Source of the DNA: an uncultured bacterium
GTDB lineage: Bacteria; Myxococcota_A; Bradymonadia; UBA7976; VGTA01
Direction: 5' to 3'
Assembly: GCA_943788935.1 (NCBI GenBank)
Contig: CALSSE010000029.1
Span: 1-64,000, forward strand
DNA length: 64,000 nt
Each line of letters starts with the position of its first letter. Position 1 is the first letter of the stretch. The notes beneath the pieces were generated by a model. The model was not told the origin of the DNA. It saw only the letters and a list, made by a program, of their open reading frames with translations, and made no database searches. The position numbers were made by a program, and so were the translations under genes. This document shows positions 9,817 to 42,923 of the stretch, piece by piece.

Positions 9817-9826
9817 ATTCACCATC

Positions 9827-22500: not shown

Positions 22501-25056
22501 AGCGGCGTCAAAGAGGTGAGAGTTTGTGAGCTGTTGTCCATTGAAATAAAAACGCATCAGTCGCTGGGTGGCGTCATAGGTAAAGCTAACATGTTGCCAA
22601 GCATAAAGGGGAAGCTCGGCTAAGGGATAGGTGTCTAAGCCGCTCGAGAGATCTCGAGCGAGTATGTCTCCATCGAAGAATTCTAGCTGATAAGCCTCTC
22701 GTTGCTCATCATATCTCAACCAGAGGCCAAATCGAGTTCGTTCGCTCCGGTCATGATGAGCGAAAATGATCTGTGGGGTTGATAGAGGTTCATGATCGCT
22801 CAAGCCTTCGGTGTAAACCCACGATGAGAAACTGAAACTTTGAGCTTCTCTATTAAGTTGGTCGTTAATGACGAGCGGAAGACGAATATGGCTTTGGTTA
22901 CCATCAAAATAACCGGCACGATTCAATACACCATCGATGGAGAGGTCTAATAGAGACCGTCCGCTTTGGAGACGATCGAGCTGGGAGATGATCCGCTCTT
23001 TGAACGACTCTTGAGACTCTAATGCACAGCCCGATATCAGCTCGCATAGCTCTTCTCCGCTGTGAACTTGACCATAGCTGAGGGGCGCTTCAATCGTCTC
23101 AAAATCGTACCATAATTTTAGCTGTACCCCTGATTGTCCCCGAGGGGCAACGTTGATCGCTGAGCCCCAAACTTGGTCCTCTCGTAATGAAGCGATCGCC
23201 GCGTTATGATTGGGAGCCATACTGTTTTCACGGAGGTCAGGATCATCGGTAAATTCTATGGTGATCGGTCTATCTCCCACTCGTTTGAAGACCAATTCGA
23301 CTAGGGGACCATATGGAATAGGAGCGCTGCTTGTAGCGTCAAACACCGACAGCCTTAAGGTGCCATCGGGGAGATGTTGAGTCGCCAGCTGCTTCCCCTC
23401 TAGCCCCCCGGAATAAAGGAGCGCAGGGAGGCGACGAGAGTCGGCGAGAACTAGCTGATCTTGTGGATAGGTAAAGTGTAGATCTAAAGCTCTCACCGGA
23501 GCATCTGAATGATCAAAATATACCCAAGCGATGACCTCTTGATCAGTCTCAGATTTCAACTCGAGGTGAGCGACGGTACAAGCGGCACCGCTGAGACATC
23601 TCCTCTGGCAGACTCCCCGACCGAATTGATCATCGTAGACACAGCGTTCATCAAGCGCACAGGTTGCTCCACCATAAGCGCTTAAATCACATAGAGTCTT
23701 ACCTTGATCATCGAGTATACTTTGTAGCCAAACAGGGACATGAGGGTCGGTCTCACTAGGTCTACAGGCTTCGATATCATCTCCTCGCCAAGATTCATCT
23801 GTGACTAGATCACAGACGACATCTGGACAAATGAAAGGGCGATAATTGCTCTGCCAGTAGCTCCCTTGATCATCGGGCGCATTCAAAGGTCGATCAAACT
23901 CGAATTCATCTAGTCGGCAAGTCTCAGGGTCACAGAAGGGGTAGAACGGCCCATTGGGAGTATCTAATTCACTCCCGCTGAGGTGCGGACACCCATATTT
24001 AGCGCTCTCACTGCTCTCATCATAGGGACAGAGTGTGCCCACGATGACCATCGAGCCATCTAGTTGGGCTCGCTGAACGTCACCAGTCTCTTCCGCACAC
24101 TCTGGATTCGGTAGTGGGGTTACCTCAACATTAAGATTAGCTTGACCGCTAGCGCCGTTAAAGCCCTCCACAAATACAAAGTATTGACCTCTGTCGAGAC
24201 TTTCAAAGACCAGCCGCTCTTCTCCTCCCTCATCGGGATTATAAGCGCAGGCCTCTTGAGCCTCTTCTTCTTCGCAGTTTGATCGGAGATAAATGATGGC
24301 GTCAAAATTGGGGTCTTCAAGGGTGACAGTTACTCTAGAGGGAGTGAGGAGTCTCAATTCAATCATCTGCTCAGAGCCGCTAGGCGTCTCTGGGTGATTG
24401 CATGAACCCGTATAGTGATCGCTTGCCTCTTGAGTATCGACTCGTAGCTGTCCACCGCTCTGCTCAAGAACTAAAATGGGGCTAGTCCATTCACAGCGAT
24501 CAGTGATGGTGAGCGCCTCAAGGTCATCACAGGAGGCCTCTGTCATCTGATCACCCTCATCGGGCTGATCGGTGTTATTAGAAGCCTCATCTAAGAGAAT
24601 ATCGCCGTAGCAGATTAGTTGTGACGGATCGAAGTTTGCGAAAGTGTTAAACTGTGAATTCACTTCGCTGCCGACGGTATTAGGACGAACGCTCGATTGA
24701 AACTCAAGGATGGCTAATTTCAAATCATGGCGATCTATGGGGTAGACATTAAGTACACCATCAGCTCCTCGACGAGCGCCATCTTTCTCCCAAGTATATG
24801 CGGGTGTTCCACACCCTTGCAGACAGATAAAACGCTCACTTTGTTCTTCATAACTTGGTGAGGTCGAGATCGCAAAAATGTGTCGATCAGCGCATGATTC
24901 AGTGCATTGAATCCATTCATTGAAACGATTTATCTCTTGTAAGCTCAGAGGGTCAGCATACACCGTCTGTAGGGAGAGGAGCATAGCACTTAATACATAC
25001 ACTGTAATGTAGAGTGGCCGAATCAAGCTAGGGGACATCATCATATTGACTTTCAC
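16597..25056 (-). CDS. 2819-residue secreted multidomain protein (cohesin-like, LamG-like, TolB-like propeller, repeats)
   Basis: I chose the GTG at 25056. An AAGGAG site lies 6 bp upstream and the previous stop 1 bp before it, whereas the nearest ATG is too far from that site. Order of parts: signal peptide ending VYA; a PPC-like sandwich (about 230-340); small Cys clusters; a cohesin-like region (about 490-620); a LamG/concanavalin-like region (about 640-860) with WQHVSFTYD; TolB/PD40-like propeller blades (about 890-1060) with KWSPDG; two CWDxN...ED...D...DC calcium-loop motifs (about 1219-1242 and 1379-1405); a Cys-rich segment (about 1500-1650); then from about 2130 a series of Ig-like repeats with a GLSGT/GLP start and a Cys-containing end. 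Its stop overlaps the next start. I infer a scaffold-like extracellular protein. No active site is visible. Confidence 0.85.
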   Translation of the reverse strand: MKVNMMMSPSLIRPLYITVYVLSAMLLSLQTVYADPLSLQEINRFNEWIQCTESCADRHIFAISTSPSYEEQSERFICLQGCGTPAYTWEKDGARRGADGVLNVYPIDRHDLKLAILEFQSSVRPNTVGSEVNSQFNTFANFDPSQLICYGDILLDEASNNTDQPDEGDQMTEASCDDLEALTITDRCEWTSPILVLEQSGGQLRVDTQEASDHYTGSCNHPETPSGSEQMIELRLLTPSRVTVTLEDPNFDAIIYLRSNCEEEEAQEACAYNPDEGGEERLVFESLDRGQYFVFVEGFNGASGQANLNVEVTPLPNPECAEETGDVQRAQLDGSMVIVGTLCPYDESSESAKYGCPHLSGSELDTPNGPFYPFCDPETCRLDEFEFDRPLNAPDDQGSYWQSNYRPFICPDVVCDLVTDESWRGDDIEACRPSETDPHVPVWLQSILDDQGKTLCDLSAYGGATCALDERCVYDDQFGRGVCQRRCLSGAACTVAHLELKSETDQEVIAWVYFDHSDAPVRALDLHFTYPQDQLVLADSRRLPALLYSGGLEGKQLATQHLPDGTLRLSVFDATSSAPIPYGPLVELVFKRVGDRPITIEFTDDPDLRENSMAPNHNAAIASLREDQVWGSAINVAPRGQSGVQLKLWYDFETIEAPLSYGQVHSGEELCELISGCALESQESFKERIISQLDRLQSGRSLLDLSIDGVLNRAGYFDGNQSHIRLPLVINDQLNREAQSFSFSSWVYTEGLSDHEPLSTPQIIFAHHDRSERTRFGLWLRYDEQREAYQLEFFDGDILARDLSSGLDTYPLAELPLYAWQHVSFTYDATQRLMRFYFNGQQLTNSHLFDAAGPSPFACPQFSRNREIILQREGSFLGGTPPQTIYYGVKESGLFKVRRRDLYGTTDQLILGDGEFSYSEPDYSPILDKLLYLSNASGHNEIWIANGDGTDRQQLTVEFGNSDLGFSARAPKWSPDGTGIVFESSAFDMIARDNIANLVYHLYYIAYDPLDNRPAIELPNGETVEQLNYQDRLADQSLIFYRLTEGDDIRHHRKVRWLEGKSQGTDDSIRQQRGRLLYESSDPLYQGKGIDELIIDEVIPLSSANQINALNSDQLSEEVSLLDAKRYMRITATGEQAVERLLFKRTYTEFNELENGYMLGSMRSILPEGSTREVSQREDTEHKFELNVVGRDEVAHSATIDLIYRPNQTSFDSMCWDKNNNNLRDADEDVTKDNQWDNRDCFLQEVSQVFVELDGDRVQIETNGLVSIQPSMVNPPSPNISRTPYNKSVQISEQNVAGRALLSIQVTAPRGVYPLYNSANNSLGANDPPLGLTIARFKIKSRGGVFGEIDTWSDSEILNHLGIVQRTAEEFLVIRDLNPGEECWDLNQNRIPEPFEDRNGDGESNTLDCIDQVFNAQGKFELIKEARLSPDLDRLLLHAVSLSRPQLLLTANLFNTENLVNLSEQSRQYKGFSWRFEERYFPCNWVGAVKHPTQKKMMTALRGGLDELKMHLGVRNIHSIRSEAERGREWLDRSEPISSQRPRCGVSHLECPPFHLCIESECVVTACDPDSTADMADSCAAYGAQCRLRPVTIESEEGGVGLSGGAEYVCVADCSSDQECYTQTCLNGPCLFCDVNTSACNECRQVEVNINGATAARTEGCPDERAFYCDVGACRTECYSFEDEQSLYLCDPVTQFCEQGRCVLRDWQWEDLSPLTLMGAADAQFELDPNAWTHYTIAIGESYPLEINAYGVGDYGANPEVLVEVRGGPYYGNQYQVLGRLTIPHRTQEEANRTPLLLDSVHPYEDVRLSLISSPYQNVTGSASGLRHFDKEFCISDVMQSDADLSKPLAQTMCERRAQGSRYQLGYRLDIPEYEAIQSCRDRGHARCPSRGRSENDFLYGGAAAVAVLDIKSAGGSISNSLIRNPICSYGGGQVPFDLQGRPQKVFFGRIDLEQSNQKDDFCEREPSRCLVGANDSATLNFDGSFALLNCTYTNAENTSESTFAEYTGIIHLGPQTESGVIAQDTGDSCLVQIGEDVDVCYEWSGNAVSFDPYTHPITEYQSLELSVSRSFGHDRGFDPVPPPSYIPIVNVRGYSTGVGLVLSNGVGQFITVSENGVIAFDPMIEGWRYDMTVAQQPLTEGLACFFNPTGLPLSGTVSNDFNTGQFEILCEQSRPIKGCVNYATNACDPTLVGGPALSLRLESVGQSTLIQEATAYADALFSFARGLKDGDNYTVSVLSSPSGLSCQVTEGGIGTVEAVDPPLVFIQCNELPDHPLSYTLSGLSDIERLTLIESVSGDTITLTTSEINTEGVGQFDFELRENEAYDLSIIGQPQSQNCSITQGVGVMPNNGLDIEQGVQIDCSDIETFEVSMPILGLPVGATVNATLVSLINQTETRSNGSYTMPSQVQGSPQPATIVFTSRLFNSQRYRIEVEEENANEAVTCEVRNLLDAESVNDPSYYEVYNNISGVPYIIQCEDANQVDQIFTLSGTVINGENLSGIKVSVNTSPNLYEIPAGATEFTLPDRLPMDSPYVVSVERSPEFSTCYVANNEGRVTSNINNLEIRCQLGTKVQLSLDVNQLPGRSVKAELYSSTVGNLSGRLIGQMQGELPTDNTILVKHLENTEGSSSDPVYLSPGTYHLYTYVNANNSYDSSSNQPTYSGGDIGRYSPLIITSDDEGTVRSVSLTAADLLPLQAVSVLGTVTGISGSPSDEQSDDSMVCIFSPPNTFFNLQGIPIPSPNQTNSPIVGTVSRTCTEGCSLDSFVYATNNNIFLIYGAYDLSCFVDVNNNDVGDLGDFVGTSQSTLTFPIPLSLQRSR

Positions 25057-25057
25057 A

Positions 25058-26134
25058 TCACTCTCCTTGACTGAGGGCAGGCCAAATGACAAGACCCTCG
25101 CCGAGTGAAGAGCCCCATAGCTGTAAATCAGCCGCTGGGGGGGCAAAGGTTTGCTCGCGTTCAATCACCTTTAACTGTACGGGCTCGGCGTCGGTACTCC
25201 CAAGCTGAATATCTAGCACTAACCAGTCTCCAGTAGCGATCTCGTTGGTGTTTTGAGTAGAGAGGACCATAAAGCTGTAGACCGATCCATTAACCCGGTA
25301 TGGCATACCTGTCGCCGGGTCAGGAATCAGTTGTTTGTTGGCGTTGATCAATGACTCACCTAGCCCTACTCGTCCTAGAATCGCTGGGCCAGTCATCATC
25401 AAGTGTATATCGGCTATTTGAGGATGCGGGGCCTCTTCGGGGAGCTGTAACGAGAGAGCGATTTGAGCCGAACTCACCTGACCACCGATCTCGCTAGTGC
25501 TTAATACTCTGAGACGAAGCGCGCAGCCTTCGCAGCTCTCTGATCGAGGGCAAGGAGAGCATTGACCGCCACAACCATCATCATCACCACAGCTCTTGTC
25601 AGCGCATTGAGGGATACACACACATCGGTTATCTTCGCAGCGTTGACTGTCACCACATGATCCACAGCTCTCTCCGCAGAGCTCGCCACATTCTGCTGAA
25701 GCGCTCTCACAACTTGGTGAGCAGTCATTCGGATTATCGTCGCCGCCTTGAGAGCCCTGCCCTCCTCCCATCTCAGCTCCACCCTCTACTTGCCTTCCAC
25801 TCTCATCATTAGAGACACACATCGCCGATTCGCAGACCTGATCATCGGCGCACTCTCCACAAGAGAAGCCACAGCGAGGGTCTACCCCACACTCTCTCCC
25901 CTGACAATTGGGTTCACAGATCTCCGTTACACCTCGGTCTGATGGCATCTCGGTCACCGTCGCGTCTAGGGAGGGCGCTGTATTCACAGGTTTATTGCAA
26001 GCGACCGCTCCCATAAATATGGAGAGGCTTATCAGAGCGAAACAGTAGGATCGAGTCTTAGAGCATGAGCCACCAGAAGGAGTCATGAACCAAGCGTTGA
26101 TATAGGCTAAAATCTTAACGCATGTGTTTTTCAT
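25058..26134 (-). CDS. Lipoprotein with Cys-rich knots and a C-terminal cohesin-like domain
   Basis: About 358 residues from the ATG at 26134, which has a GAGGGAG site just upstream. The alternative ATG at 26146 overlaps the preceding stop as ATGA but lacks such a site. The signal ends GAVAC, a lipobox. The N-terminal half has three or four knots of the form CxPxCxxxxCGxDxxCGxxCGxC, seen in many myxobacterial surface proteins, with a Gly-rich linker between. The C-terminal 150 residues (about 212-355) are strand-rich, with IADIHLMM, a GxGESLI turn, VYSFMVLS and GDWLVLDIQL, ending TFAPPAADLQLWG. This layout parallels the cohesin-like parts of the two genes downstream. I infer a membrane-anchored member of the same assembly. 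Confidence 0.8.
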   Translation of the reverse strand: MKNTCVKILAYINAWFMTPSGGSCSKTRSYCFALISLSIFMGAVACNKPVNTAPSLDATVTEMPSDRGVTEICEPNCQGRECGVDPRCGFSCGECADDQVCESAMCVSNDESGRQVEGGAEMGGGQGSQGGDDNPNDCSPSCESASAECGELCGESCGSCGDSQRCEDNRCVCIPQCADKSCGDDDGCGGQCSPCPRSESCEGCALRLRVLSTSEIGGQVSSAQIALSLQLPEEAPHPQIADIHLMMTGPAILGRVGLGESLINANKQLIPDPATGMPYRVNGSVYSFMVLSTQNTNEIATGDWLVLDIQLGSTDAEPVQLKVIEREQTFAPPAADLQLWGSSLGEGLVIWPALSQGE

Positions 26135-26142
26135 CGTCTCCC

Positions 26143-29100
26143 TCATCGCATCTCGTATTCTACGGTCATTTCGCCTGATCGCTTGTTATAGCCATCGACA
26201 ATCAAATAGTATGTGCCCGCTGGCAAAGTCGTCGAAATCTTTGAATTAAGCCCGCGACCACCATCATCGTCACAGATAAGGTCACTTGGATTGTAACAGT
26301 CTAAGCGGTCTCGGATATGCAGTACAGGATCTGAGCCGCTAGTGGTTTCAAACCGTACATTGGTCGTCCAAGGTAAGACAAACTCTATCGCTTTCTGTGG
26401 ACCATCGCCTCCACAGTGCCTACGAGTGACGTTAACACCCCCTTGATTATTGATCCTGATGGTATTCCTGAAGGGACGGAAGCCAAAGAATCTGAAGAGT
26501 CTATTATGCAGGGCATTGATAATGGTGTTCACCCCAATCCTCTGAACAACAGGAACCGATTGACACTCTGCTAAGCTCACCTTGACCGTTGAGGTACCTG
26601 ATTTTCTACGATAGCCATCGACGATCAGATAATAGGTGCCCGGATTAAGGAACTTCTCTATTTTAGGCAAATAATTACCGTTTCCATCGTCATTATAGGC
26701 GAGATGTTGTGGTCCATCACATGAGTCTCTTAGATGAAAATAGGAGTCATAAGAGTGTGAGATGCCTTCAAAGACTACGTATTTACCAGTCGTTAGAGTC
26801 AAACCGATCGCCGCTTGCGGACCACCACCACCTGCTTGAGTATTAGATGAGCGCCTCCCTCGGGTATCAATATTAATCTGTCCGCCGCGGTCGACTAAGT
26901 GGGAGACCTTATCAATGTGGGCGCAATGTAAAGTGCAGTTATTTCTACAAGTGTCATATTCATTTTGGTTTTGGTCATCACATTGTTCAACACTCTCAAA
27001 CACTCGACCATCACCGCATCGGGCATTTTGACAGTTAATACAGCTGTCATTATCCGACTGGTTCCCGTCGTCGCACTGCTCCCGACCACGCCAAACCTGA
27101 CCATCACCGCATAATGCTGGTCTACATTGGACGCAGCTATCTCCAGAGTCATTATTACCATCATCACAGAGCTCATTAGCCTGTAAAAAACCATTTCCAC
27201 AGATCTCTAGCCGGCAGAGGTGATCACAGCCATCGCCTTCATTGAGATTATTATCATCACATTGCTCTGCATTTGGAGCCCCTTCAGAGAGATCGGTTCG
27301 CCTGTATCCGTCTCCACACTTAGCGACCGAACATTCATTTGTGCAGAGATCCGCATTAGAGGTGTTTCCGTCATCACACTCTTCATAATCATTATCGGCG
27401 GGCGTTAGATCAACCCGCTGAAAGCCATCGCCACATGTAGCGCTCAGGCAGTCAGTTCGGCAAGCATCATAATCATCTGTATTACCATCATCACACTCTT
27501 CATATCCCTCAGCGCTAGGGTCGTTGAGATCAGTACGGGTCAGTCGGTCTCCACAGAACGCTAGGGAGCAGCTCCTGAGACAACGATTAGCGTTATCATT
27601 ATTATCCCCATCATCACACTCCTCTCCGGTGTCTACGTTCCCATCACCACAAGAGCAACGAAAGCGCCGCCCATTTCCGCACTGATCCTTGGCAAATGAG
27701 AAGCTCTGATCACCGCATCTCAGAGAGAGCTTCTCACCCACAGGTACCAATTTACATGAGGCGCTTAAGCCATCGATGGGTAATTCTAGCTTTTCATTAA
27801 AGTTAATCTCTTCTGCCTTGATAACGATCTCTTGAATCTTACTCTCACTTTGTGACCTAGGCTTATTGAGCTCTATAGTACCGCTTTGGCTCAATGATAA
27901 AACCCGTTTTATTTGCCCATCTGCTCTCCTCATCAAGAGACCTTGATTAGCGCTTCTTTGAGGTTCTTCTGGGTCTAAGTCTCTGATAAGCGCGGTCTCT
28001 CCATCTAGTTTTACGGAGGATCCATTCGCTGTCACCGACTTAGAGACGGTCAGTCCACTCGGCTCCGAATTATTATCAGGATCAGGATCAGAGACCCCTC
28101 CTCTTACAATAAGTCCCCCGGTCACTCGAGCTTGGGTATCGATATTGATTGAGACTGCTTCAGCAGCATAGGTAGGGCCTAAATCAATCTCTTGTTGATT
28201 AATATATGCCCCCTGTTGCGCTACCAAAGTCTCTGCGGAGACTCGCGCTCTGAGCTTCGCATCTCCTTGAACAGTGAGGCTGCCCCCCACCCTTAGGTCT
28301 TTCACGACGATGCTATCGCCTGTGACAGAGAGTTGACCTTCGGTGTTCACTTTATTGAGGGATTGTAGCTGATGATTAATATCAGCTCTCCCCTTAACCT
28401 CTGTCCTACCAGAGACCAACATGTGACCCTGTAAGATGCGCGAGTGACCCGTCAGCTTCATGTTGTCGGCGTACAGCTCTATCCGCTTGAACTGTTTAAT
28501 GACCCCTCGTTGATCTTCACTGACAAATAATATTTGATTCGCGTCAAAAGAGTCTCCCTCCTCTGCGCCTCGAACAGGTGTCCAAGAGATAAAGCCGTCA
28601 TTGTTAGTCGCTTGCAACCCTAAGGTTTGATTGAATAGTGTGAATTGCGCCTCACTCGGGGTAAAGAAATCAAAATAACCATAGCCGATCGTTGAGGGGT
28701 GTAATACATCGGCGTCAGCGGTGGCTCGGTGGGCGAAATCAGACCTAGCGACCATGGTCGCCGTCTTCGCTTTTTTCACCTCTGTGGCAGAGTGTGCGCT
28801 CATCGCAAAAGGGACGGCGGTGAGATCAATTTTTCTCAAGCACCCCTCTCGTCCACCTCCGATACAGAGCTCTAACTGGACACGTTGGTTCTCCATAAGC
28901 ACTTCATCGAGAGCGCAATTCATCCCACGGCCAATCTCTACATTGAGGATACCTTTTCTTATCTTTACCGGATGTGGAAATGACTCAGCGCACACTTCTC
29001 TATCATCTCCATAAAGCACCACCATCAATTTTATTTCACCTCTGCCCGAGGGTAGCTTGGCTGGTGAGACTCTCGCTTGAAGGTTAAAAACACTGGGTGA

Positions 29101-29301
29101 TTTGTGCAGATGGTCTATTAAGTTTGGTCGACAAGGTCCACTATCCGAACCAGAGCAAGGAGAACCCAGGTTAAGAGTTTGAGCATTCGATATAGCCACC
29201 ATGTTTAGTGAGAGCAGCATAAGGGCCACAGAAATGAGCCCATGTACTCGATAACACCTAAAGACATGCGCTGTGGTCTGAAGAAAGGAGCGATTTATCA
29301 T
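26143..29301 (-). CDS. Secreted protein: tail-fibre-like N-domain, seven DUF4215 repeats, two PPC-like domains
   Basis: About 1052 residues from the ATG at 29301. An AGGA site lies 9 bp upstream, while longer readings run into the previous gene. After a signal peptide ending SNAQ comes a domain (about 67-190) ending LTAVPFAMSAHSA, the VPxAxxA signature of a domain common in tail-fibre-like bacterial surface proteins. Residues about 270-470 have short repeated turns such as LTVQGDAKL, suggesting a beta-solenoid. Seven DUF4215-type CGDG...CDDGN repeats follow (about 550-787), then two PPC-like sandwiches that both end in GTYYLIVDGY. It is a close architectural relative of the gene starting at 37364 and shares its N-terminal domain with the one starting at 33991. 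It is probably a surface fibre or adhesin. The stop overlaps the next gene's alternative ATG. Confidence 0.85.
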   Translation of the reverse strand: MINRSFLQTTAHVFRCYRVHGLISVALMLLSLNMVAISNAQTLNLGSPCSGSDSGPCRPNLIDHLHKSPSVFNLQARVSPAKLPSGRGEIKLMVVLYGDDREVCAESFPHPVKIRKGILNVEIGRGMNCALDEVLMENQRVQLELCIGGGREGCLRKIDLTAVPFAMSAHSATEVKKAKTATMVARSDFAHRATADADVLHPSTIGYGYFDFFTPSEAQFTLFNQTLGLQATNNDGFISWTPVRGAEEGDSFDANQILFVSEDQRGVIKQFKRIELYADNMKLTGHSRILQGHMLVSGRTEVKGRADINHQLQSLNKVNTEGQLSVTGDSIVVKDLRVGGSLTVQGDAKLRARVSAETLVAQQGAYINQQEIDLGPTYAAEAVSINIDTQARVTGGLIVRGGVSDPDPDNNSEPSGLTVSKSVTANGSSVKLDGETALIRDLDPEEPQRSANQGLLMRRADGQIKRVLSLSQSGTIELNKPRSQSESKIQEIVIKAEEINFNEKLELPIDGLSASCKLVPVGEKLSLRCGDQSFSFAKDQCGNGRRFRCSCGDGNVDTGEECDDGDNNDNANRCLRSCSLAFCGDRLTRTDLNDPSAEGYEECDDGNTDDYDACRTDCLSATCGDGFQRVDLTPADNDYEECDDGNTSNADLCTNECSVAKCGDGYRRTDLSEGAPNAEQCDDNNLNEGDGCDHLCRLEICGNGFLQANELCDDGNNDSGDSCVQCRPALCGDGQVWRGREQCDDGNQSDNDSCINCQNARCGDGRVFESVEQCDDQNQNEYDTCRNNCTLHCAHIDKVSHLVDRGGQINIDTRGRRSSNTQAGGGGPQAAIGLTLTTGKYVVFEGISHSYDSYFHLRDSCDGPQHLAYNDDGNGNYLPKIEKFLNPGTYYLIVDGYRRKSGTSTVKVSLAECQSVPVVQRIGVNTIINALHNRLFRFFGFRPFRNTIRINNQGGVNVTRRHCGGDGPQKAIEFVLPWTTNVRFETTSGSDPVLHIRDRLDCYNPSDLICDDDGGRGLNSKISTTLPAGTYYLIVDGYNKRSGEMTVEYEMR

Positions 29302-29320
29302 TGATCTATTTCCTGGCTGC

Positions 29321-32300
29321 TCATTGAGTGACTGTAATGGTGACCGTAACCACATTGGACTCGGCGTCCTGATCATCCGTGAGTTTGTATGTAAAGAGAT
29401 CTTCACCACCAAAGCCGCTATTCGAGATGTATGTGAATGTGCCATCATCATTGAGCTCTAGAGTCCCATTATCTACATTATCGACGAGCACCACCGTGAG
29501 GTCTGTAGTGAGGTCATCGACATCTGAATCATTCGCTCTCACTCCTTCAAAACCAATGGTCCCATCTCGATCAAGTTCGAACTCCGATTCAATCGTATAT
29601 GTATCCTCGACTGCGACCGGAGCATCATTAGTTCCACTGATAATGATATTAAAAGATCCATCCATGTTGGCACCATCTGGATCAGTCACTCGGTAAGTGA
29701 CCTGCTTGGTCTGTGTTTCATCTTGTGCCAACGCATTGTAATCGGCGTGGTTAGTATCAAAGGTAAAGTTGCCTGTAGCATTAATGGTTAAGCCTGCGAC
29801 CGCCGGGTTCGAAACATTAGAGAAGATGAGGTTTGCTTCGTGCCCGATATCAACATCAGTCGCGGTCAGTTGACCATTAAGAGCCACATCACCTTCATTG
29901 ACCTCTTGTTGAGCAGTAAAGGTCGTCACCGGAGCATCATTAGTTCCACTGATAATGATATTAAAAGATCCATCCATGTTGGCACCATCTGGATCAGTCA
30001 CTCGGTAAGTGACCTGCTTGGTCTGTGTTTCATCTTGTGCCAACGCATTGTAATCGGCGTGGTTAGTATCAAAGGTAAAGTTGCCTGTATCATTAATGGT
30101 TAAGCCTGCGACCGCCGGGTTCGAAACATTAGAGAAGATGAGGTTTGCTTCGTGCCCGATATCAACATCAGTCGCGGTCAGTTGACCATTAAGAGCCACA
30201 TCACCTTCATTGACCTCTTGTTGAGCAGTAAAGGTCGTCACCGGAGCATCATTATCAGATACGATATTAATGGTGACTGTCGCTATCTCTGACCATTGAG
30301 GAGGGTTCGAGTCATCACGAACTTTATAGGTAAAAGAATCGGATCCATTTTCATTCTCATTAGGGCGATAAGTAAAGTGCCCATTAGGATCGAAGTCTAA
30401 TGCCCCCTTGGTCACATCAGTATCGACTCTGGCGGTCAAAACACCTATCTCATCATCGACGTCTCTATCATTTTGAATCACGCTCAGATGATCAGCATCT
30501 GAGTTATCGACGACGAGAGTGACGTCCTCGACCGTACTATACGTGTTATCTTCGGCGATCGGAGTATCATTTACTGCGGTCACGTTGATCGTGACTGTCA
30601 CGGTCGCTTCAGACTCTAAAGGAGGAGCGCCGTCATCGGTGATTTTGTAGGTGAAGGTAGCCACTCCAAAGAAGTCGTCGGCAGGCTGATATGTGAAGCT
30701 ACCATTAGGGTCGAGTGTGACGGTTCCATTGGCGTTAGAGTCATCAACCACTATCGCGGAGAGGTTATCACCTTCAGTGTCGGTGTCGTTAGAGGTAACG
30801 CCCTCAGCGACGGGCACAGTTAACAGAGTCTCTTCACTGGTTGAATAGGGGCCGTCATCAACAGCGACCGGCGGATCATTGATCGGCCTTACGGTAATGG
30901 AGACAGTGATATCATCTGACCATGTCGGTGAGTTTTCATCATCGCTGACCTGATATGTAAAGCTATCATTCCCTACATCGTTCTCGGTCGGCGTATAAGT
31001 AAATGTACCGTCAATATTAAAGTTTAGTGTGCCAGACGCCACATTACCTGTGCGACGGCACTTTAAGTTGACTAGATCATCGTCGATGTCAGTGTCATTG
31101 GCGAGCACTGAGGGGTGATTACCTCCATTGACATTAAGTACTTCATCTTCATTAAGCGTGTACGCATCATCCACACCCACCGCAGGATCATTCAGCGCGC
31201 TGACGGTGATGGTGACAATCGCTTCATTCGAGACCAAGTTATCACTGTCCCTTACGATATATCTAAAGGTGTCGACCCCATTGAAATCTTCCTCGGGTTC
31301 ATAAGTAAACTGACCATTAGCGAGTAAGCTAAAGTTAGAAGAAGAGCTCGGGCCGCTGTTCTGCACCAGCTCTACAGTCACATCCTCGGGAATTCTACTA
31401 TCAAAGTCAGTGTCATTATTAAGTACACTTTCCAAGTGGGTGTCCACCGTTAGAGTGTCATCTTCATTCAGGTTATAGGAGTCATTCAAGGCCACAGGAG
31501 CTTCATTATCGCAAACATCTCCAAGCCCATCAGTATCTTGGTCTTCTTGGCCCGCATTAGCGATAAGCGGGCAATTGTCGTCTCTATCGGAGGCACCATC
31601 ATTATCCGAGTCGGCATCAAGAGGTTCGGTCCCTAAACTGGCTTCCGCTACATCACTTAAGCCATCATTGTCGTCGTCATCATCACAGATGTCTCCTATT
31701 TGATCGCCATCAAAGTCATTTTGGTCGCCGTTCACATGATTGGGGCAGTTATCGCGACCATCATCTACTTCGTCACCGTCTGAGTCTTCAATATGACACA
31801 AACGATCACAGCCATCGCCATCAATATTATTGCCGTCATCACATTCTTCTTCAGCACCTAAGCTATCTAAAGATTTAATGCCGTTACCACAGCCAATATT
31901 TTGACAGCTTTCACAACGACTCCCAGCGACATAGGCGTCACGATCAATCTTCGCCAAAAGAAAAGTATCATCACAATCCTCCCCTAGATCTATCTCCAAA
32001 TTACCGCATAAGTCACCCGCGCATGCTTTCAGCTCGTTGGAGCCCTCCTTCGGTTTAAAGTAGATTCGATCGATAAGATTCTCAGGTTCACACAAGCAAT
32101 GACTACTGCACCCATCACCATCGATTAAATTGGCATCATCACACTGCTCACCGGGGTCGATGTCATCATTGCCGCAACGGAAAGGTCTGAGCAGTACATC
32201 CCGCTCCCCACAGACTAGAGAGAAACGCTCTACCTTATTTACGGGTTTACCTGTTTGGTCTTCAGGGATGACAATTCGACACCCCCCTCTGGTTTCAACT

Positions 32301-33991
32301 CCACCATTGAAGCTGACCCTACCAAGAATCCGGGTTCGGCCTCTGACTACCAGCTTCTTCTCTGATTCACCAAAAGTAAGAGTCCGACCATTAGCGATGA
32401 TGGCTGATGATCTCAAGGCGATCGGATCCCCTTGATTGATATCTCCTTTTAGTAAGAGGGCTAAACTTCTCGTCGCAAAGCCAGAGCCCCCCTCCTCAGC
32501 TAAGTATAGACCGTTGTTGAAGACACTGTATCCATTGACATCTACACCGCCCGAGCCTTCTACCCTCATGTCACCTCTAGTGATCTCTAGAGGTGATGAG
32601 ATCCCTGCGCTAGGTAGATTCTCTGTCCCAATCAGTAAGTCATTCAGTTTAATGGTTGGAGGTGAGTCTGGTCGGGCGCTGTTGGAGAGCTCATTATAGT
32701 AAGCGCTTTGGGTAGCGCTGACTTGGAGGCTATCAGATCGATTGGGGTCGCTACCGTTGATCAACCATTGATCGGTGACAGCCAATTGACCTAGTACCTC
32801 TCCACTGCCTCCTATATCTACCCGATTCATCCCCATGATAGACTCCCCCACTTGGGCTGTCCCTGTGAGCAATATATCACCCATCACCTCTAAGAGTGTT
32901 GTGTTGGGGGGCTCTATGAGCTCTTGATCTTGTCTCTTAGCGATGAATAGCCCAAAGCCTAGCCCTTGATCAAGATTAGGGCTGTTAGACTGAGAGACCT
33001 GCCTATCCTCGATAAAGTTAAGCCGATGCAGATTGTTTAGGTCAGCTCCCATCACGTGTAAGTCGCCAGTCACGTTTAGTGGATTTTGAAGTCTTAAATC
33101 ACCATTAACCAATTGTAAGCCTAAACGTCGTGTCTCTTGACCACTTATGGGAGTACCATCAATCTCCAAGTCCCCCTTGATTAGAGAGAAGCGGCTGACC
33201 CATGACAGTCTATTTAATCTCCGAAGTTGATCTAGGGCATGATCTTTGGACGCTAAGTATAGGTTCGCTTGGCCTGATCGAGGTCTCCATAGTAGAGTCC
33301 CTCCACCTGCGCCATTGCTCACCTCAGAGCCTCTAACTAAGAATTCTCCAGTGATATTTTGAGTGAGGTTGTGTCGTACGCTATTTGATAAGTCACGATC
33401 GGCGGTCATTCTTTGCGCATAATGACTGATAGAGGCTCGCGCGACGTTATTTGCTTTTAAGGCCCAATAGGCGAATTCTGACTTTAGGGCATAAGGTACA
33501 GTGCTCAGCTTAATCGGGCGCAGGCAGTTTTGATTGTCTAGACAGACTTTAACTTTTAGCTGATTGTGCCGAGACAATGTTTGAGCGAGCTGGCAGCCGT
33601 TGAGATCGATCTCATTAATATTTAGGTCAAGAACGCTGTTATTAATGACGACGTTGGCTTTCTCCATTCCACATAAAAGCTGATCTTTTAGATCATAAAT
33701 ATTAACCTGCAGGCGACTGATCTCTCGGTCACCGAGCAACAACTTAGCCTGCGCCAGTCGAGCTTGGAAATTAAAAGAGGTCGGGACGTTGGTTGAGTCG
33801 GGATATAGCGCCGAAACTAGAGGGTCAACCTGATGAAGTTGGCAACGTAAAGAGGGTTCATTGAGGGCGTTGACATTAAATTCACATGACCTCGCTCTCA
33901 CCTCGATATTACTCATTATGACGAACACTAATGTCAAAGAGAGGCAAGAGACAACTCGCCCCAATGTCCATGTATCTTTGATGCTTCTCAT
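29321..33991 (-). CDS. Secreted protein: tail-fibre-like N-domain, DUF4215, type-3 repeats, seven cadherin/VCBS-like modules
   Basis: 1556 residues. The signal peptide ends VRARS. The N-terminal domain (about 70-190) ends LSTVPYALKSEFA and matches those of both flanking genes. Short beta-solenoid-like turns follow, then DUF4215-type repeats (about 600-737), thrombospondin type-3 calcium loops (about 740-827), and seven Ig-like modules, most opening NDxPVAxxD and containing NDxDxD and GxFTYxP motifs, as in VCBS/cadherin-like repeats. The fifth and sixth modules are almost identical at DNA level. A GAGG site lies 7 bp before the ATG. The gap to the upstream gene is 106 bp, the longest in the operon, so an internal promoter is possible but none is clear. 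It is probably a long calcium-stiffened adhesin. Confidence 0.87.
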   Translation of the reverse strand: MRSIKDTWTLGRVVSCLSLTLVFVIMSNIEVRARSCEFNVNALNEPSLRCQLHQVDPLVSALYPDSTNVPTSFNFQARLAQAKLLLGDREISRLQVNIYDLKDQLLCGMEKANVVINNSVLDLNINEIDLNGCQLAQTLSRHNQLKVKVCLDNQNCLRPIKLSTVPYALKSEFAYWALKANNVARASISHYAQRMTADRDLSNSVRHNLTQNITGEFLVRGSEVSNGAGGGTLLWRPRSGQANLYLASKDHALDQLRRLNRLSWVSRFSLIKGDLEIDGTPISGQETRRLGLQLVNGDLRLQNPLNVTGDLHVMGADLNNLHRLNFIEDRQVSQSNSPNLDQGLGFGLFIAKRQDQELIEPPNTTLLEVMGDILLTGTAQVGESIMGMNRVDIGGSGEVLGQLAVTDQWLINGSDPNRSDSLQVSATQSAYYNELSNSARPDSPPTIKLNDLLIGTENLPSAGISSPLEITRGDMRVEGSGGVDVNGYSVFNNGLYLAEEGGSGFATRSLALLLKGDINQGDPIALRSSAIIANGRTLTFGESEKKLVVRGRTRILGRVSFNGGVETRGGCRIVIPEDQTGKPVNKVERFSLVCGERDVLLRPFRCGNDDIDPGEQCDDANLIDGDGCSSHCLCEPENLIDRIYFKPKEGSNELKACAGDLCGNLEIDLGEDCDDTFLLAKIDRDAYVAGSRCESCQNIGCGNGIKSLDSLGAEEECDDGNNIDGDGCDRLCHIEDSDGDEVDDGRDNCPNHVNGDQNDFDGDQIGDICDDDDDNDGLSDVAEASLGTEPLDADSDNDGASDRDDNCPLIANAGQEDQDTDGLGDVCDNEAPVALNDSYNLNEDDTLTVDTHLESVLNNDTDFDSRIPEDVTVELVQNSGPSSSSNFSLLANGQFTYEPEEDFNGVDTFRYIVRDSDNLVSNEAIVTITVSALNDPAVGVDDAYTLNEDEVLNVNGGNHPSVLANDTDIDDDLVNLKCRRTGNVASGTLNFNIDGTFTYTPTENDVGNDSFTYQVSDDENSPTWSDDITVSITVRPINDPPVAVDDGPYSTSEETLLTVPVAEGVTSNDTDTEGDNLSAIVVDDSNANGTVTLDPNGSFTYQPADDFFGVATFTYKITDDGAPPLESEATVTVTINVTAVNDTPIAEDNTYSTVEDVTLVVDNSDADHLSVIQNDRDVDDEIGVLTARVDTDVTKGALDFDPNGHFTYRPNENENGSDSFTYKVRDDSNPPQWSEIATVTINIVSDNDAPVTTFTAQQEVNEGDVALNGQLTATDVDIGHEANLIFSNVSNPAVAGLTINDTGNFTFDTNHADYNALAQDETQTKQVTYRVTDPDGANMDGSFNIIISGTNDAPVTTFTAQQEVNEGDVALNGQLTATDVDIGHEANLIFSNVSNPAVAGLTINATGNFTFDTNHADYNALAQDETQTKQVTYRVTDPDGANMDGSFNIIISGTNDAPVAVEDTYTIESEFELDRDGTIGFEGVRANDSDVDDLTTDLTVVLVDNVDNGTLELNDDGTFTYISNSGFGGEDLFTYKLTDDQDAESNVVTVTITVTQ
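29616..30239. repeat. 312-bp tandem duplication of one adhesin module
   Basis: Two consecutive 312-bp copies (29616-29927 and 29928-30239) encode the fifth and sixth Ig-like modules. Reading both copies by eye I find one difference, a G/T change near 29776 and 30088, which alters Ala to Asp. The unit is exactly 104 codons, so the frame is kept. The near-identity points to a recent duplication or ongoing gene conversion. Confidence 0.95.
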
Positions 33992-34097
33992 GGGCGATCC
34001 TCATCGGGTTTTATGACAGTCTTTAAGTCAGCATTGAGGAGACAGATGCTCCGCCTTAAAACAGAGAAATAGATGGCTATATTAATCATTATCACCT

Positions 34098-37000
34098 CTA
34101 CTGGACATCGAGAGCGATGTTAATTAAGCCACCGTTTATAGTGTAGTTATCGACAATGATGTAGTAGACCCCTCTCGGCAGAGTATGCTCTAGTCGAGCA
34201 TTTGCAGAGTTCTCAGTCACGTTGTCATTACACAACAAGATACTTGAGTTATTGGGAGATCTCAGAGTGGTGTTCTCTTCACATCCAGATTTAATGTAAA
34301 TCACCGAATCAATACTATTAGATGAAGTCGTCACTGTCACTTCACTCTCGGTCTCTAAGATCAGCTCAATTGCTACTTGAGACATCCCTAATCCTGTGGT
34401 GGCTTGATCCGCATTAAACTCAGTATTTGTGGGCTGAACAAAGCCAGGAGGGACTTCATTCAAACATGTCGTTTGTACGTAGCCTGGTCGTCCCAGACTC
34501 GCTAGATTAGGTTGAAATATGAGTGATTTGTCAGGGTCTGTACTCTTATGATAGATCGACGCCAAGAGTTTCTCCTGCTCTGCGCAAGTAAACTTAACAC
34601 CGAGGTACGTCTTACCTTGAACACTAGAGTCGTTGATCCCACCTCCAACAACGATATAGTGCCTACCAGGTGCATAAAATTGTGGAGCGATCAAAGCCAT
34701 TGTGTTGCCCCCAGAGCTATCATCACACACCGAGCTTACTACTTGATCACACCTTTCCCGATAAACAAGGAAAGGATCACTATGTGCTTGACCTTCTAGA
34801 GAATATTGATAGGTCTGAAAAGCGATCATCGATGGTTCGGTGACATCGATTTCAACCACTCTCTGTGGAGCGTTAGAAGTATCGCCAAACAGTTGGATAT
34901 CATTCTCATCAACGCATTGAGTCTCCGAATAGTATTTTGCATTTTCTGCGGGGGATAAGGAGCTGACGACCTCTGACTGAGTTGTATCGATCTCAACAAA
35001 GGCAGAGGTTCCCCGAATGCGGTCGGCGACTTCTAGCTTACAGCTGGTCACAAACTGACAGAGGTTATCACAATCATCGTTATCAACTAAATTCCCATCA
35101 TCACACTCCTCTTTAAGGAGCCCAGTTTCACTCACATCGACTTGAATAGGGTCTATGATCCCATCACCACATCGAGCATAGGTGCAGTCTGCCCGACAGT
35201 TCGCCCTTGGGTAAGTGACTCTAACGATTGAACAATCTGGATCGGCATCGCATGAGTTAGTAGTGAGGCTCTCAGCGATGAGGTTAATGACCAAGTCTTC
35301 TCGGTCATCGTCACTTTGGAGAGTACATACACCGTCTGGTGTCTCTTCTGTGATCAGCCAATGAGTAGCGAACTGAATTGTGCGATTATCGAGGACAAGA
35401 TTAGAGTCATTGAGAGTATCGCAGGCTGTTTGCTCTACATTCTCAATGCGCCTAAAGAATCGACAGTTGTTAAATGCGGTGCTGCTTAAGTCACAATATT
35501 TAGTGACGGGGTTGACTAAGTTATTGGGTCCATCATCACACAGCTCATCCCCTTCTCTGAGGGCATTACCACAGTCACTCTCTAACAGGGCGCTCACCCT
35601 TACCGTGACTCCACCACAAGTAATATCAAAGACATTGGGGATTAACTTTCTAAAATTCTCAGCAGTAGGATCATCAACTATCGCCGGTAGGATTTGACAC
35701 TCTGGCTCGATATCGAAGCTAGGTTCAGGCTCAAAGATCACTTCCTCTGAAAACTGCACTTGGCTATCAAAGTCGACGACGGTGAAGTGAGCAGGCGAGG
35801 TGGCCTCGTCACTTGAAGGATCGAAATTAATAATGAGCTTATCGCTTCCTTGATCATCAACTAGATACATAATCGGCTGACTCTGACCCCCTCTAAGCAA
35901 TGAAAACACCTGACCAATTTGAAGCTCTTTATGAACCTCAACATCACCAATGACCCGAAGATCATTATCGATGTCGAGCTGACCATTGGTGAGAACTGCC
36001 GTTCCATTTACATCTACGTCACCATCGATCACCATTTGCCCCATGGAAGAAGCGCTATCAATCGCAGAGAGCGATATTGAGCCTCGATTGATTCTTGTAG
36101 ACCCCACCCTGAGCGATGAGCGCCCATGATTATATAGTGGGTTTAGAGTGAGGGGACCTGTAAGGTGAATCGGTCCTGATACCGTGAAGAGGTAATGCGG
36201 ACCATTGATCATTAGGTTAGGGTCTCGCCACCCTTGATTAAGGTCTGCGGTAACCGTGACTTCACTCCTCGTGACAACCTCTCCGCTCACTAACATACCA
36301 CCTGCATCGATCGTCGTATTACCTTGAACCGTGATTGGTTGCTCTGTATATGCTAAGCCTTGATCCAACATAAGATCACCGTCTACATTGAGTCGACCTT
36401 GGACGGAGAGCGCCGTTTGAGGTGCGCTGTCTTGAATGTCCATTTCGGGTCTGAAGGAACGGCTGATCTCAATATTAGGCCCATACCAATCGACTAACTT
36501 CGAGGCGATGGTTAATTGGTCTAAATTGGTAATGCCACGCTCAGATACGTTTGATAACCGCGCAATATGCAGATGGTCTGCTTCTTCTGGGCGTGAATTA
36601 GACCTGTATTCACGATGCCAACGGATATATCCGGCCTCAGAGATCTCATCTAACTTTGCCTGATCATCAGAGTTTAACCTCAATGCGCTTGGCCCTAGCC
36701 CTAAAGGTCTTTGAGTTCTAAAAGAGAAGTGACTAGGGATTACGAGACTCGACCAATCGGTATCTTGGTCTACTAGGCGGTAGACATAGGAACTGCTGTG
36801 CGCATAATTGGCTTGGTACACATTCTCTGCTTCACGAGCGATATTCACTCTAATCGCATAAGGAACAGACGAGATATTTACGTCTCTATTAAAGCATCGC
36901 TCAATGCCGCTCGATTGATTATCATTACTGCTTACAAAGTCAGTCTCTCGCGTCTCGCTAAAACATAATCTCATACTGAGTGTCTGTTTTTTGGCGAGCT

Positions 37001-37364
37001 CACGACCAAAGTCGCAACCAGCGTTTAAGCCTAGTTCCAGATTGAGAACGCTGTCTAATATCCTAACATTTTGGAAGGTCTCTTCACAGTCTCCGCCTGA
37101 ACTCAAGTCGCTATATTTGACCTTGAGCTCGTAGACAAGGCCTTCCAAAATTGGGAGCTCGGTTTGGCTAATACGGGTTTGATAACTCAACTTGGGACGT
37201 ATCGGTGATGGTGGAAGAGCCTCTACCTGATTTTGAGAGGGCCTCCCGTTCACCCAAGAGACTGAGCGTTCTGCTCGCGCGATGTGTACCGATCCGATGG
37301 AGACAATGACCAAGACTAATAGTGAGTAAGAAGTGTATTTACATGCAGATGGGCCATTGAGCAT
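34098..37364 (-). CDS. First operon gene: tail-fibre-like N-domain, DUF4215 and PPC-like secreted protein
   Basis: 1088 residues. The signal peptide ends HIARAE. A domain (about 55-185) ends ISSVPYAIRVNIA, the same signature as the next two genes. A stretch of short turns with repeated VxGDVDVNG-like units (about 330-500) suggests a beta-solenoid. Scattered DUF4215-type Cys motifs follow (about 595-760), then two PPC-like sandwiches, the last ending GVYYIIVDNY. An AAGG site precedes the ATG. This is the promoter-proximal gene of the ten-gene minus-strand set. It is probably a cell-surface fibre or adhesin, and its exact ligand is unknown. Confidence 0.85.
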   Translation of the reverse strand: MLNGPSACKYTSYSLLVLVIVSIGSVHIARAERSVSWVNGRPSQNQVEALPPSPIRPKLSYQTRISQTELPILEGLVYELKVKYSDLSSGGDCEETFQNVRILDSVLNLELGLNAGCDFGRELAKKQTLSMRLCFSETRETDFVSSNDNQSSGIERCFNRDVNISSVPYAIRVNIAREAENVYQANYAHSSSYVYRLVDQDTDWSSLVIPSHFSFRTQRPLGLGPSALRLNSDDQAKLDEISEAGYIRWHREYRSNSRPEEADHLHIARLSNVSERGITNLDQLTIASKLVDWYGPNIEISRSFRPEMDIQDSAPQTALSVQGRLNVDGDLMLDQGLAYTEQPITVQGNTTIDAGGMLVSGEVVTRSEVTVTADLNQGWRDPNLMINGPHYLFTVSGPIHLTGPLTLNPLYNHGRSSLRVGSTRINRGSISLSAIDSASSMGQMVIDGDVDVNGTAVLTNGQLDIDNDLRVIGDVEVHKELQIGQVFSLLRGGQSQPIMYLVDDQGSDKLIINFDPSSDEATSPAHFTVVDFDSQVQFSEEVIFEPEPSFDIEPECQILPAIVDDPTAENFRKLIPNVFDITCGGVTVRVSALLESDCGNALREGDELCDDGPNNLVNPVTKYCDLSSTAFNNCRFFRRIENVEQTACDTLNDSNLVLDNRTIQFATHWLITEETPDGVCTLQSDDDREDLVINLIAESLTTNSCDADPDCSIVRVTYPRANCRADCTYARCGDGIIDPIQVDVSETGLLKEECDDGNLVDNDDCDNLCQFVTSCKLEVADRIRGTSAFVEIDTTQSEVVSSLSPAENAKYYSETQCVDENDIQLFGDTSNAPQRVVEIDVTEPSMIAFQTYQYSLEGQAHSDPFLVYRERCDQVVSSVCDDSSGGNTMALIAPQFYAPGRHYIVVGGGINDSSVQGKTYLGVKFTCAEQEKLLASIYHKSTDPDKSLIFQPNLASLGRPGYVQTTCLNEVPPGFVQPTNTEFNADQATTGLGMSQVAIELILETESEVTVTTSSNSIDSVIYIKSGCEENTTLRSPNNSSILLCNDNVTENSANARLEHTLPRGVYYIIVDNYTINGGLINIALDVQ

Positions 37365-38408: not shown

Positions 38409-39281
38409 ATGCAGATCCATCGGTTGTTCACGGTACGTTTGCCGAATCTTTCTTTGTCGACGACGCTCATCTTTCTCTCATCAGTTTATCTGTTGAGCTC
38501 TCCAAGCGTAGCTCAAACTACATCGGGAGAGATCTCCCTAGCCGATCTGCAAAAGATGCCTAACCTTACAAGGGCTCAAGCTGAGATTAAAGCTCTGTTA
38601 GATCATACCGATGATCTCAACCGAGGGCGCTCTTCGCACAGTGAGATCACGCTCAAGGTCCATAACCCACGTTATCAAAGAGCTCTCAAAATGAAGGTGT
38701 GGACAAAAGGGACAACGCACTCGTTAATTCGAATCACTTCGCCTAAACGAGAAGCGGGTATGGCGACGCTTAAAGTGAATGATGAGGCCTGGAACTACAT
38801 GCCCAATCTCGACCGGACGTTAAAAATCTCAACCTCGGCGATGGGAGGTTCTTGGATGGGGAGTCACTTCACGAATGATGACCTCGTTCGAGGTGTTCGC
38901 TTGAGTGAGGCCTATACTTGGGAGCTTAAAGCTCAGCCTGATATGAAGACATCACCAGAGGCGCGAGGTCATTACATCATTTATCTTGAGGCAAAGCCGA
39001 ACGCCCCCGTAGTGTGGGGATCACTGATTCTTGAAATCAACGCTCAAAAGGTTCCGCTTCGAATGCGTTATTTCAATGAGCGTGGCCGACTGGTGAGGAC
39101 TTTAAGTTTTCACGATATCCGAGAGGTGAGTGGAGAGCTCATCCCCTTTAAGATTCGGATTGAACCTAAGTCTAAGCGAGGCAAAGTCGCTCAAGAGTGG
39201 ACTGAGCTGACCTATGATTCACTGGTATTTAATGTCGACCTCTCACGCTCTCTCTTTAGTATGAGAGCCTTAAAACAATGA
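38409..39281 (+). CDS. LolA-like outer-membrane lipoprotein-sorting family protein
   Basis: 290 residues with a signal peptide ending near SVAQ. The body resembles the LolA-like family (outer membrane lipoprotein-sorting protein, PF17131 type). It has a half-open barrel pattern, with RITSPKREAGMATLK, WNYMPNLDRTLKI and a SWMGSHFTNDDL segment, the last a hallmark of this family. An AAGGA site lies 6 bp before the ATG. It overlaps the following permease gene, and all the downstream neighbours are FtsX/LolD-type components. The expected role is a periplasmic carrier of lipoproteins or lipids between an inner-membrane ABC transporter and the outer membrane. It is distinct from classical LolA, so the substrate may differ. 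Confidence 0.85.
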   Translation: MQIHRLFTVRLPNLSLSTTLIFLSSVYLLSSPSVAQTTSGEISLADLQKMPNLTRAQAEIKALLDHTDDLNRGRSSHSEITLKVHNPRYQRALKMKVWTKGTTHSLIRITSPKREAGMATLKVNDEAWNYMPNLDRTLKISTSAMGGSWMGSHFTNDDLVRGVRLSEAYTWELKAQPDMKTSPEARGHYIIYLEAKPNAPVVWGSLILEINAQKVPLRMRYFNERGRLVRTLSFHDIREVSGELIPFKIRIEPKSKRGKVAQEWTELTYDSLVFNVDLSRSLFSMRALKQ

Positions 39282-40666: not shown

Positions 40667-40667
40667 C

Positions 40668-42023: not shown

Positions 42024-42150
42024 TCTCCCGCTCTACTCTCGAAAAATCACCTGCCTCGCTACTCCAACAGTGCTCATCCTTAGAGGTGATGCGAGAATGA
42101 AATAAGAGATCTTCAAACACTACCTAGCGCTCCTGAAGAAAGTTTTAGCT

Positions 42151-42909: not shown

Positions 42910-42923
42910 ACTTGAGATCTGTC

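Follow-up and report, generated by a model that had tools for sequence, protein, structure and literature searches.

Three tandem genes for probable surface fibres of an uncultured Bradymonadia bacterium and a putative cohesin-dockerin-type scaffold encoded in their operon

The 64,000-nucleotide stretch of DNA analyzed here (the window; positions 1 to 64,000 of contig CALSSE010000029.1, from an uncultured bacterium of the Bradymonadia) carries on its minus strand three tandem genes, P1, P2 and P3, whose products share an N-terminal domain and end in different C-terminal modules. We lean, by a modest margin of confidence, toward the view that these proteins are adhesive surface fibres of the MAT/tail-fibre type, held by a scaffold of cohesin-dockerin type that is encoded in the same operon. 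What is new here is the common cohesin-type domain of three neighboring proteins, L1, L2 and Big, together with a dockerin-like region in a fourth, D. Among the matches listed in a search of titles and abstract openings of the open-licence literature, there was no account of this operon or of Myxococcota MAT-like fibres with cohesins.

Our comparison rests on 13 P genes (P denotes any operon gene of the P1-P3 kind) from seven loci in six genomes representing at least four families: the genome of the window (G000), a second genus of the same family (G002), G054, SP234, G254 and two copies, a and b, in G220. A further genome from the genus of the window, G001, is 91% complete. Most loci were found through P and SP234 through D, and the SP234 sequence starts within Big and runs onward. 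The evidence from G002 is split over two contigs, with L018 holding P3 and P2 and L011 bearing, immediately ahead of L1, the C-terminus of P1, the part by which this protein is known there. Copy b of G220 is spread over three contigs, such that its gene order and the link between P and D are inferred across contigs. The fibre genes of the window and their N-domains, the latter placed by alignment, are as follows.

34098-37364, minus strand: P3, 1088 amino acids; N-domain, rod, Cys-rich acidic repeats and two PPC-like domains; G002 orthologue (L018) 38% identical over 1135 columns.
36750-37202, minus strand: P3 N-domain (multiple alignments).
29321-33991, minus strand: P2, 1556 amino acids; N-domain, rod, Cys-rich repeats, TSP3 and tandem-95/VCBS modules; G002 orthologue (L018) cut at its 3' end.
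33377-33784, minus strand: P2 N-domain (multiple alignments).
26143-29301, minus strand: P1, about 1052 amino acids; N-domain, rod, Cys-rich repeats and two PPC-like domains; reading frame open from 29451.
28702-29100, minus strand: P1 N-domain (alignment; AF2 model of a beta-sandwich followed by a low-confidence helix).

The original prediction of three tandem paralogues with a common base is borne out by BLASTP comparison of their N-regions, which pairs P1 with P2 at E 5e-15, P1 with P3 at 1e-15 and P2 with P3 at 3e-11, well above chance. Identity to the N-domain of P1 is only 33% for P2 and 28% for P3. Four cysteines are invariant among the 12 operon-type N-domains, and a P-x-A element is invariant along with the four cysteines in six sequences. 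The motif VPxAxxA, with which all three N-domains were said to end, is literal in P1 (VPFAMSA) and altered in P2 (VPYALKS) and P3 (VPYAIRV). Because P2 stops at 29321 and an AGGA lies 9 nucleotides ahead of the ATG at 29301, this ATG is most likely the start of P1, rather than 29451.

Beyond the N-domain, the rod of P3 shows a hydrophobic periodicity (lag 6) of 0.20 against a 95% limit of shuffles of 0.18, and the rod of the G054 protein exceeds the shuffle limit at lag 19 (four rods were examined). Between rod and tip lie Cys-rich acidic repeats (TIGR02232), with seven, two and two stretches in P1, P2 and P3, respectively. A search with the whole of P1 matched 38 of 38 genomes, nearly all of the listed matches falling over these repeats, and was dropped in favor of N-region profiles. 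The tip of P2 exceeds the cut-offs for both tandem-95 (271.9 bits; cut-off 90) and VCBS (81.9 bits; cut-off 15.5), in accord with the VCBS-like modules first read in the middle gene. Paired PPC-like ends had been assigned to the other two genes; for P1 the match lies beneath the Pfam cut-off (15.7 bits; cut-off 25.9), with the C-terminus of its G002 orthologue above it (29.1 bits), while for P3 and its G002 orthologue the Pfam search returned no PPC match, the assignment leaning instead on the relation of the P3 tip to that of P1 (BLASTP E 2.4e-11 over 373 columns). Within P2, two adjoining modules of 104 amino acids at 29630-30253 are identical at 103 of 104 positions, pointing to a recent lengthening of that tip.

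Two relatives of P1-P3 connect the family to phage tail fibres. In G054 and SP234, the P protein has the same base and its gene the same place in the operon, and its C-terminus is a Peptidase_S74 domain (29.1 and 32.7 bits, respectively; cut-off 22), which passages of the MAT paper describe as a chaperone and protease that ensures trimerization of phage spikes (PMC10769870). The tail-fibre-like character originally ascribed to the genes is thus supported through this chaperone, and relatives that join this base to other ends lend further weight to the notion of a common base with differing tips. No Peptidase_S74 match was found in G000 (P1-P3 included), G001, G002, G220 or G254. A tblastn search with the G054 N-domain gave no match in 50,697 phage records and likewise none in a plasmid collection, and a fold search of BFVD with the P1 N-domain model returned no match at E<=0.001. 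The idea that the N-domain came from a phage or plasmid was rejected; the whole protein of another relative matched a single phage (two records), and that over just a 57-amino-acid piece close to its C-terminus.

The closest known counterparts of the fibres are those of the mosaic adhesive trimer (MAT) superfamily of Bdellovibrio, which grip prey and to which the likeness is distant. As in MAT, a conserved base carries variable tips with or without S74 (S74 in two genes, PPC-like and tandem-95/VCBS ends in others). The base was compared with the MAT N-domain model Bdello_MAT_N (NF053851; curated cut-off 60 bits) by way of set A9, which comprises 12 of 13 weak Myxococcota N-domain matches: A9 relates to the operon N-domains with an HH probability of 97.9 (E 5.9e-13), and of its 12 members 10 hit Bdello_MAT_N at E<=1, the best at 4.1e-6, with every available bit score under the cut-off. 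These profile comparisons suggest that the operon N-domain is a remote relative of Bdello_MAT_N by homology, not a member of that family. In the AF2 model of the P1 N-domain (mean pLDDT 80.8), a beta-sandwich, in which seven of the first nine ten-residue blocks exceed 90, is followed by a doubtful helix. Neither a fold search of the PDB with this model (E<=0.001) nor a search of PDB sequences with the N-domain profile found a match, which agrees with what the MAT paper remarks on its own N-domain (PMC10769870); such an absence shows little.

In the window, P1 is followed by L1, Big, L2, D, the protein PPCm and an OmpA-family protein. The candidate scaffold proteins and the domains that mark them are listed below.

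25058-26146, minus strand: L1, lipoprotein of 362 amino acids (lipobox by eye; orthologues).
25073-25525, minus strand: L1 domain with a modeled cohesin fold (AF2 mean pLDDT 91.8; Foldseek; VIA).
16597-25164, minus strand: Big, 2855 amino acids, with a LamG-like domain (domain search).
23137-23568, minus strand: cohesin-like domain of Big (HH probability 96.9, E 1.5e-10 to the L2 profile; G054 L2 matches Big residues 551-667 by BLASTP, E 4e-6).
16022-16597, minus strand: L2, lipoprotein of 191 amino acids (lipobox by eye and pattern).
16043-16435, minus strand: cohesin-like domain of L2 (HH probability 98.4, E 4.9e-15 to the L1 profile).
9827-16018, minus strand: D, 2063 amino acids (31-53% identical to relatives in BLASTP pieces).
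15446-15670, minus strand: dockerin-like region of D (a pair of similar helices and a single calcium-loop motif that starts at residue 159).

The core L1-Big-P-L2-D is conserved in G054, G254 and both copies of G220, and from within Big in SP234. L1 has orthologues in all six loci that cover that part, and a relative of PPCm follows D in each of the five other loci that reach so far (G054, SP234, G254, G220 a and b). P itself lies before L1 in G000 and G002, where the gap between Big and L2 is empty, and between Big and L2 in the other loci. Across the operons, Big ranges from 2.4 to 4 thousand amino acids and D measures about 2 thousand. Big of the window carries at residues ~194-364 a PPC-like insert that resembles the tips of P3 and P1 (BLASTP E 4.4e-7 to P3) and lies outside the aligned pieces of the G002 Big, a module common to fibre tips and Big. 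Among 282 sampled genomes of the phylum, the N-domain profile matched 16 at E<=0.001 and five at the level of the operon type (E<=1e-30), and the D profile picked out those five as well. When a collection of 84,980 species was scanned with a pattern for D, five loci came up, four of them already known and the fifth, SP234, new and likewise provided with P; the scan was not exhaustive, having missed the second D of G220 that a profile later found. Because the neighbors are conserved, and because a constant base contrasts with changing tips, the base is suggested to meet conserved partners.

Of these candidate partners, L1 is the one with a modeled domain. In a Foldseek search with the model of its C-terminal domain, cohesins make up 13 of the 14 matches at E<=0.001, the remaining one being the CLIPPER domain of an adhesin; with VIA, cohesin appears in the titles of 47 of 50 rows, and of the other three, two belong to cellulosome scaffoldins and one to ClfA (Z 8.5). 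The best VIA row has Z 12.2 and an rmsd of 2.9 Å over 134 residues. The model thus allows us to assign a cohesin fold to this domain confidently, and the domains of L2 and Big are cohesin-like as judged by homology to the L1 domain only. A profile of the joint L1/L2/Big alignment (A11) found two matches only among PDB sequences, both of them chains of cohesin-dockerin entries (E 0.021 and 0.022), and the L2 profile (A4) reached cohesin entries at E 1.4; the profile of Big alone and that of D (A12) found none. Engineered repeat proteins, which came first in the A4 search (E 8.3e-7), had no stretch that passed alone and were set aside as a composition artefact. Because the PDB sequence searches are weak, the cohesin claim rests on fold.

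Dockerins consist of two F-hand repeats with calcium loops of the form DxNxDxxx[ND]xxD. Inspection of the corresponding region of D reveals that the second calcium loop is kept in six of six aligned D proteins. By profile, the dockerin-like region occurs once per operon, and in G000 the D profile finds D alone, with the cohesin-like profile finding the three operon domains and one elsewhere. Away from the operon, G000 (C11, L093:867-6134; A11 profile E 1.1e-6) and G002 (C94, L094:1756-6192; E 4.0e-9) each encode a long TSP3-array protein that opens, as judged by eye, with many EF-hand-like motifs and closes with a cohesin-like domain; the next gene in G000 is lipoprotein-like, and its end looks similar by eye. 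These genes may mark a second cohesin-type surface system.

If P1-P3 are indeed scaffold-held fibres, each would have a conserved base near the cell, followed by a long rod rich in beta structure, Cys-rich repeats and a tip that can be exchanged, and all three would go back to a single duplicated operon gene, relatives of which can carry a C-terminal S74 chaperone. The holder would consist of L1, L2 and Big, each with a cohesin-type domain, and of D, whose dockerin-like region would clip onto them; this L1/L2/Big/D scaffold would be membrane-anchored, with the fibre bases sitting on it, and its lipoproteins and giant proteins would keep the fibre at the outer membrane. Trimers, a surface location, docking of D and contact between N-domain and scaffold are all features that we infer. 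The operon context suggests that the N-domain is placed on a common anchor and makes separate fibres likelier than one mixed assembly. A more specific proposal is that the clamp itself, D bridging L1/L2 and Big through cohesin-dockerin pairing, is the receptor of the fibre N-domain, staying constant while tips are swapped or fibre genes multiplied; this we put forward tentatively, regarding it as less probable than its converse. By analogy with MAT, we guess that the fibres might grip prey or other surfaces.

Several results pull the other way and lower our confidence in scaffold-held fibres. With regard to the base, the P1 N-domain scores 17.2 bits (E 0.0033) against Bdello_MAT_N, under its 60-bit cut-off, only two of 12 operon N-domains match that model even at E<=10, and in none of six genomes is the cut-off exceeded. 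Among the four rods examined, those of P1 and P2 have periodicities below the 95% shuffle limit, a weak signal, and the beta-solenoid-like stretch of the original prediction is plausible though only weakly supported. With regard to the scaffold, A11, with its 18 rows, has no match to a Pfam cohesin family at E<=10, none of six D rows matches Pfam Dockerin_1 (PF00404), and this model has no match at the place of D in six genomes. The first calcium loop of the D region is degenerate, its helix being kept, and the bare loop pattern occurs once also in the OmpA-family protein of the window and once in Big of G254. The P proteins contain no calcium-loop pattern, and Dockerin_1 matches elsewhere in G054 and G220 make other partners possible there. 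The agreement between the N-domain and D profiles in five of 282 genomes is partly circular, with D profile rows drawn from all five and N-domain profile rows from three; its independent part is the absence elsewhere and the N-domain matches in G220 and G254, and the first-look candidates were partly scored. Finally, G001 (91% complete, as noted) has no P, D or cohesin-like match by profile, and the system therefore seems dispensable.

These points bear differently on the alternatives. The lack of a dockerin-like loop in P would fit MAT-like fibres that hold by their own N-domain and an unrelated receptor, the cohesin- and dockerin-like proteins forming a separate structure that is merely co-transcribed, as would the relocation of the P genes (before L1 in G000 and G002, between Big and L2 elsewhere) without loss of the other genes. 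P nonetheless accompanies D in seven of seven loci from at least four families, with the proviso that the link in G220 copy b is inferred and that most loci were found through P, and we consider such a separate structure unlikely. Somewhat less likely still are ordinary modular secreted matrix proteins of the Myxococcota, neither trimers nor fibres, in which the N-domain serves as a folding cap. The modules of P1 are common, as the matches in 38 of 38 genomes, mostly over the Cys-rich repeats, attest, rod periodicity is weak and neither G000 nor G002 has S74; against this stands the occurrence on the same base, in two loci, of S74, the trimerization chaperone of phage spikes in the cited passages (PMC10769870). 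That P1, P2 and P3 join through their N-domains in one mixed complex displaying three tips together appears improbable, since, despite a common N-domain and a gene order that two genera share where their contigs reveal it, four of seven loci have a single P gene and the N-domains of P2 and P3 are as distant from that of P1 as given above.

Turning to the age of the three genes, G002 has adjacent orthologues of P3 and P2 (L018), and its contig L011 shows the C-terminal part of a P1 orthologue immediately ahead of L1. In a tree of the P proteins, the G000/G002 pairs of P2 and of P3 are supported at 100/100; elsewhere, two of nine inner branches are starred, P1 forms a long branch and the deep branching is poorly supported. 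The orthologous pairs and the kept order indicate that the triplication predates the split of these two genera, which supplies the date sought in the original proposal to align the duplicates, and because the deep branches are unsupported, the tree does not date the triplication relative to the split from G054. Identity between the G000 and G002 proteins is 57% (P2) and 45% (P3) in the N-domain, 38% for both in the rod and 46% in the C-terminal part of P3; the C-terminus of P1 reaches 49% over 237 columns. G220 copy b contains a tandem array Pa-Pb-Pc with differing ends, and further P ends seen by eye consist of Cys-rich repeats alone or are Gly-rich. The two tandem arrays, that of G000/G002 and that of G220, show tip diversification.

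The run of operon genes in the window closes with two more proteins.

4348-9948, minus strand: PPCm, Cys-rich, with a lipobox pattern; relatives follow D elsewhere.
546-4337, minus strand: final gene of the run, encoding a TSP3-repeat protein of the OmpA family (OmpA 53.8 bits; cut-off 27.2).

PPCm of the window has no Pfam match. The last gene looks like a fusion, in which a TSP3 protein closes with a hydrophobic tail that begins with Cys and has RYRR (MYXO-CTERM-like by eye), and the same frame then continues into a new signal-like stretch and an OmpA protein. Divergent from the operon, the plus-strand genes at 38409-44204 begin with a LolA-like protein and then, also by Pfam, a MacB/FtsX permease; the next products look by eye like another permease, an ABC ATPase and a probable outer-membrane protein. 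The set may serve in lipoprotein handling. Beyond these genes lie a protein with 14 DUF4215 stretches (388 bits) and an SLDHS-repeat tail (44255-48307, minus strand) and a reading frame with a long TMNAG-repeat run and five near-identical Asp/Cys-rich repeats (53917-54912, minus strand; opposite strand partly open).

Should a scaffold of this kind hold the fibres, it would be the kind of partner left unidentified in the Bdellovibrio work; according to that study, it is still to be established which surface element the MAT N-domain binds (PMC10769870). The operon ties a phage-fibre-like adhesin family to conserved candidate anchors, and makes the question of what holds the MAT N-domain testable with defined pairs. 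Cohesin-dockerin docking would, for its part, gain a role in fibre display instead of enzyme display.

Three known systems provide the nearest comparisons. With phage S74 tail fibres and tailspikes (PF13884), the operon P proteins of G054 and SP234 share the S74 C-terminus; they differ from them in that operon P proteins have bacterial signal peptides, as judged by eye, and an N-domain not found in phages. With MAT of Bdellovibrio bacteriovorus (PMC10769870), the operon P proteins have in common a beta-rich N-domain of ~130 amino acids after a signal peptide, an extended fibre region, tips that vary, S74 among them, and several copies per genome; unlike MAT, the P proteins of the window have N-domains far under the MAT_N cut-off with four conserved cysteines, and PPC-like and tandem-95/VCBS tips, and their conserved operon also encodes cohesin-type domains on giant proteins and lipoproteins. 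The scaffold, in turn, recalls cohesin-dockerin pairs outside cellulosomes (PMC9012536): one lipoprotein has a domain modeled with a cohesin fold, another lipoprotein and a giant protein have domains homologous to it, and the partner bears a dockerin-like region with a calcium loop. It departs from such pairs in lacking a Pfam match and in offering one dockerin-like region for three cohesin-like domains, and is genetically tied to fibres, not to enzymes.

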